From assembly GCA_005882895.1 (NCBI GenBank), contig VBBD01000021.1:1-36986 (forward strand): a stretch of DNA of 36,986 nucleotides. The letters are read 5' to 3'. Both the position numbers and the translations under genes were made by a program. Shown here one piece after another: positions 1 through 36,986 of the stretch. The notes beneath the pieces are model-generated. The model ran no database searches, had not been told where the DNA came from, and was given only the letters and a program-made list of their open reading frames with translations. Source of the stretch: Candidatus Bathyarchaeota archaeon (GTDB lineage: Archaea > Thermoproteota > Bathyarchaeia > 40CM-2-53-6). Position 1 is the stretch's first letter, and the number at the start of each line of letters is the position of its first letter.

Positions 1-2
1 CA

Positions 3-230
3 AACAGCGCTAACGAGGGTTATCCAAATTACGGTGACCTCGTGGTCGAGATAATCTGTGTAAACCCGCCCAGCCAGACAGACGCGATACCCGCATGCCA
101 GAACTATACGAACCAGATCCCAGTTCCAAGCGTTGGCCAGCACATCACGATCACAGGCCCGTATGTTCTAGACGCTGACCATTACAATTGGGCAGAAATA
201 CACCCGGTATACTCGCTAGTAATCAGGTAG
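3..230 (+). CDS. C-terminal end of an exported OB-fold-like protein (5' end outside the window)
   Basis: The reading frame is open from the first complete codon, so only the last 75 or so residues are seen. The visible part contains GDLVVEI, then a segment with two cysteines, then VGQHITITGPYVLDADH followed by WAEIHPVYSL near the C-terminus. The pattern G-x-V-x-x-D-x-x-H-x-W-x-E-I-H-P is, from memory, typical of small extracytoplasmic beta-barrel (OB-fold-like) domains found in secreted bacterial and archaeal proteins; this is recall, not a search. A degraded copy of the same C-terminus lies at 9991-10056. The gene ends 26 bases before the convergent gene at 257-682. Substrate or partner unknown. 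Confidence 0.6.
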   Translation, partial: NSANEGYPNYGDLVVEIICVNPPSQTDAIPACQNYTNQIPVPSVGQHITITGPYVLDADHYNWAEIHPVYSLVIR

Positions 231-2336: not shown

Positions 2337-2408
2337 TTCGGCATTCCAAAGGATGCTTTGGGGGGAGATAAGAATAAGAATCGATGCTATGACCCCTAAC
2401 TTCTCACC

Positions 2409-3506
2409 TTGCGACTGGCTATACTGATTCATCCATTCGGCAGATTCGGTGGAGCGGAGCGCCTTGCCATTCTTCATGCCTTAGGACTCAGAAAGGCAGG
2501 GGTCGAGGTTACGTTGTATACCGATACGACCTTAATGCATCGTGATTGGCTTTCAATGCTCGGGTCTAAGGTCCAAGTGAGAAATCTTCCTTATGGACTG
2601 AGAGGGAGAAACATCATTCGAGAACTCGGCACTTTCGACAGACTACTAATTCATCATCATGTCGAGCCACTAATGGCGAGGCGAATCATCGGCAGATATG
2701 CGGACAAAACGTATTGGTATACCGGTGAGGTCCTCCGAGCCGTTTGGGAAGACAAGATAACAGGCGAAGACTACAGGCAATTTAGCCCCACAGTCTTCCG
2801 TACGGCCAGTCACTTCTACGGGAAACGTTCATGGATCGCCCTCTGGGGCCCAATGTACAATCTGACGGTTTCAATGCTCAGAGTGTTAGACGTGGCCACT
2901 GTCCGCCGATTCAAGGGCATAATCGCAAACAGCGAGTACATGGCAGACCTAGTAAAGAGAATTTACCGCTATCCGGGACCCATGTTCGTGGCATATCCGG
3001 CTCCTTCGCTTCCGGCGTCTATGTTCAAACCCGATTATGGGAACGGCGACTATATTCTCGCCGTGGGCGCACTCTTACCAAACAAGAATCATCATGATCT
3101 CTTGGAAGCCATGTCTCTTCTGGAAGAGCCCCCCCTGCTTCGCATCGTGGGCGAGGGACAGGAGAGACGCAAGCTACAGTCTCAAGCGCGAAAGCAAGGG
3201 GTGGAAACGGAGTTTGATCCCCTAGTCACCGGGGAGGAGCTGTGTCGTCTCTATGAAGGTAGCCTGTTCGTCGTAGTCCCGTCCTTGTCTGAGCCTTTTG
3301 GAATGACTGCAGTGGAAGCCGCGTTGGCCGGCAAGACGTCCGTGGTGACCGAACTCGGAGGAACCAAAGAGTTCGTTCTGGACCAGAAGACGGGGCTTGT
3401 AGTTAATCCTCGACACACCAAGAATTTTGCATCAGCGATGGAAACACTCCTCGACGACAGGGACCTACGAAAGAGCATGGGACAGAGGGCGAGAGAAATT
3501 CTCTAA
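2409..3506 (+). CDS. GT4-family glycosyltransferase, 3' end cut by an inverted repeat
   Basis: The frame encodes 365 residues with a GT-B fold. The N-terminal motif FGRFGGAERL around residues 11-20 is the glycine-rich acceptor-side loop of GT4 enzymes. The C-terminal half has VGALLPNKNHHDLLEA and a nucleotide-sugar-binding region reading SEPFGMTAVEAALAG, including the E-x7-E pattern. It would transfer a sugar from a nucleotide sugar to a lipid-linked or surface glycan. The start is TTG at 2409, giving the typical MRLAIL beginning. The last genuine codons end at about 3488; the final residues and the TAA come from the inverted-repeat copy at 3489-3687, so the native C-terminal helix is missing. 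The encoded end is therefore artificial or mutated. Confidence 0.85.
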   Translation: MRLAILIHPFGRFGGAERLAILHALGLRKAGVEVTLYTDTTLMHRDWLSMLGSKVQVRNLPYGLRGRNIIRELGTFDRLLIHHHVEPLMARRIIGRYADKTYWYTGEVLRAVWEDKITGEDYRQFSPTVFRTASHFYGKRSWIALWGPMYNLTVSMLRVLDVATVRRFKGIIANSEYMADLVKRIYRYPGPMFVAYPAPSLPASMFKPDYGNGDYILAVGALLPNKNHHDLLEAMSLLEEPPLLRIVGEGQERRKLQSQARKQGVETEFDPLVTGEELCRLYEGSLFVVVPSLSEPFGMTAVEAALAGKTSVVTELGGTKEFVLDQKTGLVVNPRHTKNFASAMETLLDDRDLRKSMGQRAREIL

Positions 3507-3687
3507 AAATGAGAATTGCAAGACCCACAGGTAGCAAGAATATGAAGAAGATGAAGTAGACGTAGTAGACCGCCAGCTCCTGCTGAGAAACACCAGGCGT
3601 TGGCGTAGTTGGCAAGAACACGAAGTTTGCAGAGTTAATGACTACGTTCTCTAAGGTTCCCGAGTTTGCAACGAAAACGATTGATTC
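3489..3687. repeat. 199-bp inverted repeat, displaced copy
   Basis: This is an exact reverse complement of 4321-4519, compared base by base with no mismatch over 199 positions. In this copy neither edge makes genetic sense. On the left it interrupts the C-terminus of the GT4 gene, and on the right it interrupts the N-terminal part of the GT-C-like gene whose frame resumes at 3688. It is therefore the duplicated or misplaced copy. The distance between copies is 633 bp. Confidence 0.95.
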
Positions 3688-5790
3688 TCAACATGGACAT
3701 CAGTCTCTCTCTTCAAGAATGCAAACATCAACATAACGTCATACCCGATTCTCACCGCAAACGTAAATCTCACGTCTGGTGTCCGATATGGGGTAAGGTT
3801 CTACGCGCAATATCTCAACAGCACAGAATACAACGTCTGGTGGGAAGGGTCCCCACTCGATCACCGGCCCGGAATAGGATATGAATCCGTTAGAGTCAAC
3901 ATGCAAAGAGAAGCCTTGCTTGCGACTGGTCATTCGGTTGATTCAGTCAACAAAGTGGAACTTTATGTGGAAGATCCTCCCTTTTCCCCACAGAGTTTCC
4001 AGTTTACACTATCCAAACTCTCGTTCGAAAGCGAGAGCCTCGGTAGAGTCTCAAATGGCCAGTATCGAGCAATCTATTATGATTTGAAAAATCCCCCTCA
4101 AAGCAACAGTTTCTTCTATCTGAACACGATCAATTTGGGCGTAACGACAAATGCAAGCCGTGGTGCTGTGTTCTCGATCTATTTTTTCGATGGTCCGACT
4201 GTCTATACCTCTACAACGGCGTCTGGACTTGTGTACAACCCGCTTACATCATTCTCTTTGTACACTTTTTATCCAAACACTCAACAACAAATCTTCCCCG
4301 AACTCTTACCTACTTCCAACGAATCAATCGTTTTCGTTGCAAACTCGGGAACCTTAGAGAACGTAGTCATTAACTCTGCAAACTTCGTGTTCTTGCCAAC
4401 TACGCCAACGCCTGGTGTTTCTCAGCAGGAGCTGGCGGTCTACTACGTCTACTTCATCTTCTTCATATTCTTGCTACCTGTGGGTCTTGCAATTCTCATT
4501 TTTAGAGAATTTCTCTCGCGAAGTCAAGTACCCAAGGTAGCAATCATCATTGTATTATTCACCGGTATGATGTGCAGGATTGCGCTTGCAATAACTACGG
4601 CCCACGTATTCGACATGAATGTTCTCCTATCATCGATTAGAGGATGGTTCCAGTTTAGAAATCCGCTCGGCGCGCTCGGACCCACATTACCGTTCACCTT
4701 CTTCCTCTACTGGACGGCATATTCTCCCTACGTATTGATTCAGCTCGCAGGATTTCAGGACGTCCAGTTCCTAGGGCACGCCGCTGGCGTCGTCGAGGCT
4801 TTCTTTGTTAAGCTGTTTCCCATTCTCATGGATGTCCTCACTTTTTTCTTGCTGCTACGGTTTAGGAAAAGTGGAGCTGGATTCGTGTGGGCTACGTTCT
4901 ATTTTCTCAATCCCCTAGCTATTTTTGTTTCATCGGTCTGGGCCCAGTATGCCGCCGCGACAATGGCTTTCACGGTATGGGGAGTATATTGGATGTCCCG
5001 AGAGAAGTATGCGCGGGCAGCTCTTGCGTTTGTCGTTTCAGGTATGATCGAACTGGTGGGTTTCCTTCCGTATGTGCTGCTTCTGACAAGAACTGCTCGG
5101 ATGAAACTTTACAAAGCGCTTCTGATGTGCGGTCTGGCCATAATACCCGTGTTCTTCTACCCTCCTGAAGCCATCCTCATATTCCGAATCTCTCTTAGCC
5201 TTGCGGGTTTCATTAGTGGCCAGTTCTCGAACCCTGGCAGCTACACCCTTTTGGGAAATTTTCCACAATTGGCCATACTCAACAAGTTGAAACCTCTTCT
5301 CTTATCCCAAGCGATAGTACTTGGAGCAGCTTTGGTCGAAATGTACAGGCATCGGTTGAATGTGGAAAATCTCGTTTTCTTCATTGCTCTATCATCGGGC
5401 TTCTCTCTTTTGTTTTCAAATCTTCTCACATCCTGGGTTTGGCTCCTACCGGTCTGTTTGCTGTTCGCAACTATGAAAGGAAAGAATGACCTCGGTGCCT
5501 TCGTACTCGTCTTTGGCACAAGTATGGCTTTCTTGGAAATAAGTTACGGGTTTGGTTCGACCTACTTGATATTGGGCAATGCCGGATATCCTATTCAGCC
5601 GCCTGCGTTCGAAACTATTAGCAACGGATCGAGAATTTTCAGCATAATGGCAACCGTTTTGGCAGTCTTGTTACTACTCTACCTACGATATGGGAGTGGT
5701 CAACCCGCTAGAACGTTGATTAGAACATCGGGTGTGGTTCTGTCTACATATCTTTTGCTCTATTTTTGGCTCGGGGTTCATCTCGTTTGA
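3688..5790 (+). CDS. GT-C-like membrane glycosyltransferase, 5' end missing
   Basis: The coding frame is open from 3688, immediately after the displaced inverted repeat; an in-frame TGA lies just inside the repeat at 3682-3684. About 700 residues remain. The first 230 or so form a hydrophilic Asn/Thr/Ser-rich domain with beta-type periodicity (for example VRYGVRFYAQYLNSTEY), likely extracytoplasmic and with many possible N-glycosylation sites. About eleven membrane helices follow. The stretch NPLAIFVSSVWAQYAAA resembles the N-P-x5-S-x-W-x-Q motif of ALG6/mannosyltransferase-like GT-C enzymes. An ATG at 3901 would start inside the domain and is not a natural start. The native signal or first helix has been lost, so the gene is probably nonfunctional as assembled. 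Its TGA overlaps the next gene's TTG. Confidence 0.75.
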   Translation, partial: STWTSVSLFKNANINITSYPILTANVNLTSGVRYGVRFYAQYLNSTEYNVWWEGSPLDHRPGIGYESVRVNMQREALLATGHSVDSVNKVELYVEDPPFSPQSFQFTLSKLSFESESLGRVSNGQYRAIYYDLKNPPQSNSFFYLNTINLGVTTNASRGAVFSIYFFDGPTVYTSTTASGLVYNPLTSFSLYTFYPNTQQQIFPELLPTSNESIVFVANSGTLENVVINSANFVFLPTTPTPGVSQQELAVYYVYFIFFIFLLPVGLAILIFREFLSRSQVPKVAIIIVLFTGMMCRIALAITTAHVFDMNVLLSSIRGWFQFRNPLGALGPTLPFTFFLYWTAYSPYVLIQLAGFQDVQFLGHAAGVVEAFFVKLFPILMDVLTFFLLLRFRKSGAGFVWATFYFLNPLAIFVSSVWAQYAAATMAFTVWGVYWMSREKYARAALAFVVSGMIELVGFLPYVLLLTRTARMKLYKALLMCGLAIIPVFFYPPEAILIFRISLSLAGFISGQFSNPGSYTLLGNFPQLAILNKLKPLLLSQAIVLGAALVEMYRHRLNVENLVFFIALSSGFSLLFSNLLTSWVWLLPVCLLFATMKGKNDLGAFVLVFGTSMAFLEISYGFGSTYLILGNAGYPIQPPAFETISNGSRIFSIMATVLAVLLLLYLRYGSGQPARTLIRTSGVVLSTYLLLYFWLGVHLV
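4321..4519. repeat. 199-bp inverted repeat, native copy
   Basis: This copy lies inside the membrane glycosyltransferase frame and is read continuously through both edges, so it is the native location. It encodes the end of the soluble domain and the first membrane helix. A 13-base near-palindrome, AGAGAA-T-TTCTCT, lies at 4504-4516, three bases from the repeat edge. Confidence 0.95.
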
Positions 5791-36327: not shown

Positions 36328-36570
36328 ACCACTCATGCGACGCAAAATGCTTGAACAATACCCCACTTTTCTGACGGGACGATTTGCTGTCCGGCACTGA
36401 TTCCACGCGAGTCTGGTGATTTAGGGCACAATCCAAGCTTGGATGCAAAGGCGAAACTTGCCGTTTTATCGCCGTGTCACGAACGATCTCTTGAGCACTG
36501 CTGGGAAGGGGTCCCAGATTCGAGATCAGGGTTGATAACAAGCGATTTCGCGAATCAGACTGTTCCCTCG
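36328..36570. repeat. Diverged tandem repeat, first copy (about 243 bp)
   Basis: From 36384 this copy aligns without gaps to the second copy at an offset of 241 bases. Shared blocks include TTGCTGTC, GGCAC, GCGAGTCT, GTGATT, AGGGC, GCTTGG, AGATCAGGG, GCGATT and CTGTTC. The first 55 bases match more weakly with a two-base shift (ACCACT and CCCC). No intact gene lies in it. It fills most of the gap after the terminator. Confidence 0.6.
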
Positions 36571-36810
36571 ACCACTTTGCGTTGCGAGTCGCGTTCGCTA
36601 AGACCCCCCTCCTGGAGAGGTCACTTGCTGTCTGGCACGTATTATGGGCGAGTCTCGTGATTCAGGGCGCGTTCCGGGCTTGGGTCGGATAATGGATGGT
36701 GGGATTTCGTCGGGGGGATCCCGAACGTTTGGAGGGAAGTCTAGGGACCCCCTCTCATTTTCAAGATCAGGGCTGAAAATGGGCGATTCTGCATTTCTCT
36801 GTTCTCTACT
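36571..36810. repeat. Diverged tandem repeat, second copy (about 240 bp)
   Basis: This copy directly follows the first and ends at the stop codon of the partial minus-strand gene. Identity to the first copy is in blocks, so the duplication is old. It has no recognisable coding frame; short matches such as ALNH(Q/E)TR occur on the minus strand in both copies but stop codons interrupt. Confidence 0.6.
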
Positions 36811-36986
36811 CTAATTGGTAGGGATGGGCTAGTACTGTTCCAAAAGTCGTTGTTGGCTTGTTCGCCCGCCGCCTTAACAGAGGATAGACGACCACAACAC
36901 CAACAACTGCGACAATTCCTACGGCGACTACGATCCCGACCAAGAGTATCGGAGCCAGAAAAGAACTGAACGACGGACCCTGCTGA
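36811..36986 (-). CDS. C-terminal membrane anchor of a surface protein (5' end outside the window)
   Basis: The minus-strand frame is open from the window end to TAG at 36811-36813, giving about 58 residues. A Ser/Phe-rich lead (PSFSSF) is followed by a single long hydrophobic helix of Leu, Val, Ile, Ala and Gly, then the basic stop-transfer YPLLRRRANK and a short cytoplasmic tail. One helix near the C-terminus with a basic stop is typical of archaeal surface or substrate-binding proteins anchored by their C-terminus. The main domain is not in the window. Confidence 0.7.

Follow-up and report, generated by a model that had tools for sequence, protein, structure and literature searches.

Several described systems resemble the locus analysed here. 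In the COBRA simulations, the end sequences that IDBA-UD leaves at repeats are maxK-1 bases long (PMC10914622), and local assembly errors by IDBA-UD are known in kind (PMC7111523). The inverted arm described below shares with these a repeated sequence of exactly maxK-1 bases, the loss of native sequence and the cutting of genes at the join, but here the repeat is inverted and internal to the contig, and the join carries no N. A literature search, with a limited set of queries over openly licensed full texts, found no paper on such an inverted, maxK-1-long form. With the short-range template switches of the four-point model (PMC7954356), the locus shares an inverted copy of nearby sequence, the order 1-4-3-2 and microhomology at the first switch; it differs in that the copied length equals an assembler constant and the return switch has no detectable homology. 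The fold-back chimeras produced by phi29 (MDA; PMC1855051) likewise carry an inverted segment from <10 kb away, short complementarity and a deletion. Those chimeras have a single junction, however, and neither signs of amplification nor further chimeras were found in our sample. As in invertons, finally, inverted repeats bracket a segment of ~0.6-1.2 kb; unlike in invertons, no dedicated invertase was found, the segment is collinear with its orthologues and flipping it destroys a gene.

The inverted repeat and the glycan genes that it cuts

The window, by which we mean the whole stretch of 36,986 nucleotides that was analysed, is an entire contig (C60) of a 1.97-Mb draft genome in 92 contigs, 86.6% complete. 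A repeat finder run on it returned two arms, at 3489-3687 and 4321-4519, that are exact reverse complements (199/199 nt) and lie 633 nt apart, which is the inverted copy that an earlier sequence-only reading had pointed out. No other repeat of ≥30 nt was found in the window. An exact match of 199 nt is far longer than chance would produce. In the draft genome the arm sequence was found at these two places only, and the other perfect inverted matches within one stretch, in a 1,066,147-base sample of the same MAG, were 20-22-nt palindromes only. The same event was absent from 17 same-genus genomes and from 11 named genomes. The secondary structure of the donor switch site was unremarkable (z -1.4).

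As the reference for the native state we used a same-genus genome (G017, contigs C50 and C37), in which the gene order is the same. The right arm (4321-4519, plus strand) lies in frame within a large membrane protein gene of the glycan operon and is conserved in both G017 contigs; the earlier choice of this arm as the native copy thus stands, and the left arm (3489-3687, minus strand) is out of place, occupying the position of other expected sequence. To its left is a GT4-type glycosyltransferase gene (2409-3506, plus strand; Pfam PF00534, 4e-31) with 85% nucleotide identity to G017:C50 over window positions 2406-3496. Its product stops after RARE-IL, and the G017 orthologues continue for ~21 residues in the protein alignment. 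To the right, the membrane protein frame (3685-5790, plus strand) has 68% amino acid identity to an 804-residue frame of G017:C37 and no match in a Pfam search. The frame opens at 3685, ~103 residues into the orthologous open frame, with its first ATG at 3901, and by comparison with that frame the missing residues include the N-terminal hydrophobic segment. The left arm stands in place of ~21 codons at the end of GT4 and ~103 codons at the start of the membrane gene, and the orthologues bear out the double truncation reported before.

The sequence-only reading had also held that native sequence was lost and replaced, and the relative's locus agrees. In G017:C50 the GT4 match is followed by 360 bp without a match, after which the membrane-gene match begins at window position 3691; the corresponding interval in the window is 194 bp. 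There is no inverted copy in G017:C50, and its 360 bp are of different sequence. A search with the relative's N-terminal 144 amino acids found no intact copy of the lost N-terminus in the assembly. We rejected the idea that the native allele lies elsewhere in the assembly, since this query and the GT4 query matched only the present locus or remote paralogues. A scan of GTDB with GT4 as query gave no confirmed relative.

The membrane protein varies in its layout within the genus. In several same-genus genomes (G011:C155, G003:C52, G013:C163) it matches two separate frames, next to each other or overlapping, with the break at residue ~275-280, and in the window and two of the G017 copies it is one fused frame. 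The split (~residue 277, window ~4519) coincides, to within a few bases, with the right-hand end of the right arm.

Arm length and the assembler constant

When GTDB genomes were scanned by protein, the near relatives proved to be MAGs of soil Bathyarchaeota, most of them named after the 14_xxxx samples; the matches of G017 and their coordinates coincide with those of one of these relatives, BA_24. The study of these samples (PMC6784897) describes 250-bp HiSeq reads with a target spacing of 500 bp, trimming to at most 200 bp and, for most samples, assembly by IDBA-UD with -mink 30 -maxk 200. The arm length of 199 is maxK-1 for this maxk. Exact repeats in the 1,066,147-base sample of the MAG were at most 199 nt long (the arms), followed by 195, 190, 186 and 155, with none of ≥200, and the arm therefore sits exactly at the ceiling on exact repeats that a k = 200 graph would set. 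Several of the longest repeats are exact dovetail overlaps at contig ends, up to 190, which suggests an assembler k above 190; contig ends overlapping by exactly 199 were not seen in the sample. From the relatives' records, and from end overlaps reaching 190, we infer that this MAG was probably assembled by IDBA-UD with maxk 200.

Across 355 kb of relatives' sequence there was no 199-bp repeat and a single 240-bp tandem. The latter, in a related MAG (G048:C27; L223 10600-11079), is a perfect duplication of 80 codons, in frame within an open frame, and could be either real or another assembly duplication.

A probable single junction and assembler join

The two ends of the left arm differ. At junction 1 (3489-3496, plus strand), alignment to G017:C50 and to the donor gives GAGAGAGGGCGAGAGAGCGA in the orthologous GT4 gene, GACAGAGGGCGAGAGAAATT in the window and TTGACTTCGCGAGAGAAATT on the donor strand, all of which have the 8-nt microhomology GCGAGAGA in common. 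At the start of the left arm, ~8 bases (3489-3496) are probably native GT4 sequence shared by microhomology, which would leave ~191 bases as newly placed. At junction 2 (3687/3688, unstranded) the window reads GATTC/TCAACATGG, and in the orthologues the codon that matches follows GTA or GCA; no homology is detectable here, as judged from the sequence of relatives rather than from this species' native allele. There is no run of N at this point, and such runs are few anywhere in the sample. Junction 2 looks like a butt-join made by the assembler. Homology of 8 nt at junction 1 and none detectable at junction 2 is what would be expected if only junction 1 came from DNA.

A pure k-mer misjoin at junction 1 was rejected as unlikely, because 8 shared bases are far too few, being far below any k (30 or more) in the relatives' study; molecules carrying this junction were presumably made, either in vitro or in cells. 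The converse idea, that junction 2 is the sole real junction, was also set aside, as the match of GCGAGAGA to the orthologous GT4 gene would then be chance.

We simulated de Bruijn unitigs from a stand-in native allele (with random filler) plus one single-junction molecule, which was either a fold-back or a simple inversion, each via GCGAGAGA. With k = 141, 180 or 190 the unitig that carries junction 1 ended before 3687; with k = 201 or 210 it passed 3687 and diverged from the window there; and with k = 200 it ended 199 bases after 3488, which is window position 3687 exactly, so that the simulated contig tail stops at junction 2. One DNA junction and k = 200 would thus account for where the arm ends, and no second biological switch would be needed.

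On this basis, the arrangement printed in the contig is probably a composite made in assembly rather than the arrangement of the chromosome. First, in some molecules the GT4 end would have become linked through GCGAGAGA to position 4511 of the membrane gene, from where the opposite strand is read leftwards. Such molecules would be fold-back chimeras formed in vitro, or part of the population would truly carry an inversion or fold-back. A de Bruijn assembler at k = 200 would then have traced this branch for k-1 = 199 bases, to 3687, beyond which the branch would be indistinguishable from the native opposite strand and the contig would stop. Lastly, the assembler or scaffolder would have set this contig end directly against the membrane-gene contig, at 3688. 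The native sequence with the last part of GT4 and the first part of the membrane gene, ~360 bp long at the relative's locus, would be left out in that step. The maxk of 200 for this MAG, the existence of molecules with junction 1 and the final join are deduced rather than seen. We favour a single junction plus an assembler join over other causes because the arm is maxK-1 long, the repeat ceiling is 199 bp, the microhomology is one-sided and the k = 200 simulation stops at the right base. A real event that has this length by coincidence is possible. The earlier reading, which had left a choice between a genomic event and a chimera, is thus partly supported.

If the arrangement is artificial, neither of the two truncated genes in this MAG, GT4 and the membrane gene, should be taken for a pseudogene or a phase-variable gene, and a near inverted repeat whose length is exactly maxK-1 would serve as a simple error flag for public MAGs assembled with long k. 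If it is real, an uncultured archaeal lineage would offer a template switch or inversion resolved to the base.

Template switching, amplification and inversion

Among the alternatives to an assembly composite, the one that survives best is a real and recent double template switch, or a templated insertion at a break, in the archaeon itself, although we regard it as unlikely. The nascent strand would leave the GT4 gene at GCGAGAGA, copy ~191 nt of the opposite strand (4511 to 4321) and return at 3688, with the native stretch deleted and the four points in the order 1-4-3-2. This order is one of the two commonest among ape short-range template switches (PMC7954356), and the 8-nt microhomology at junction 1, the loss of native sequence relative to G017:C50, the absence of a second allele from the assembly and the perfect identity of the arms, consistent with a recent event, all fit. 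Against these stand the need for the arm length to equal maxK-1 by coincidence, which we estimate at roughly 1 in 200, a return at junction 2 without detectable homology, the disruption of two genes in an operon that is conserved in the relative, and the lack of any similar event elsewhere in 1.07 Mb of the MAG. It is the required coincidence of length that makes us prefer the assembly composite.

A chimera arising purely in amplification by phi29 or PCR, with both junctions in one molecule and assembled unchanged, seems very improbable. Inverted segments with short complementarity and a deletion are typical of phi29 (PMC1855051), but its chimeras normally have one junction, and the length coincidence would go unexplained. 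The relatives' libraries came from bulk soil DNA, with whole-genome amplification unmentioned in the passages of the study consulted (PMC6784897), and there was no other fold-back in 1.07 Mb of the MAG. The same sample, in which no other near perfect inverted repeat of >22 nt was found, speaks against MDA chimeras and led us to reject systematic chimerism of the MAG.

We give a similarly small chance to a simple inversion of a ~1.2-kb native segment in part of the population, mis-assembled and possibly serving the glycan operon as a phase switch. Such an inversion could run through the 8-bp inverted pair formed by GCGAGAGA (3489-3496) and TCTCTCGC (4512-4519); its left junction would be exactly junction 1, and in the simulation mixed orientations gave the same 199-bp tail at k = 200. 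Yet 8 bp is short for a site-specific switch, the window contains the 8-mer GCGAGAGA 6 times, with 3.2 expected, the right inversion junction was not seen, and the orthologues keep one orientation. A search of the MAG for a dedicated invertase gave no match to PF00239, for resolvase-type recombinases, and a single match to the integrase family PF00589, on another contig (C13). Only one orientation was found in the assembly and the orthologues, and an assembly may miss a minority orientation. The more specific proposal, that a reversible ~1.2-kb inversion via the 8-bp pair switches off two adjacent surface-glycan genes in part of the population (phase variation), is less probable still. The sequence-only reading had suggested an invertible 1-kb segment bounded by the 199-bp arms, and this finds little favour, because 3688-4320 is collinear with the orthologues and, once flipped, would put a TGA stop immediately ahead of 4321, and because the search for a dedicated invertase found none.

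A join of two paralogous operons was considered as well, as the gene order resembles G017:C50 to the left of the join and G017:C37 to the right, and it is not favoured because no second paralogue of the membrane gene came up when the MAG was searched.

Some minor observations concern the gene family and the contig as a whole. G017 has three paralogous pairs of a GT4 gene and a large membrane protein gene (on C50, C37 and C54), and this MAG has only one. A repeat of ~275 bp, without an Rfam match and with copies that are about 95-99% identical, is dispersed over at least five places in the MAG, often near contig ends (window 36515-36791; L046 3970-4243; L079 18653-18927; L053 1-210; L051 214-435). 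At its left end, the window (1-186) has an exact 186-bp overlap, head to head, with contig C23, and at its right end (36951-36986) an exact 36-bp overlap with the end of contig C28, so that the likely neighbour on each side can be named.
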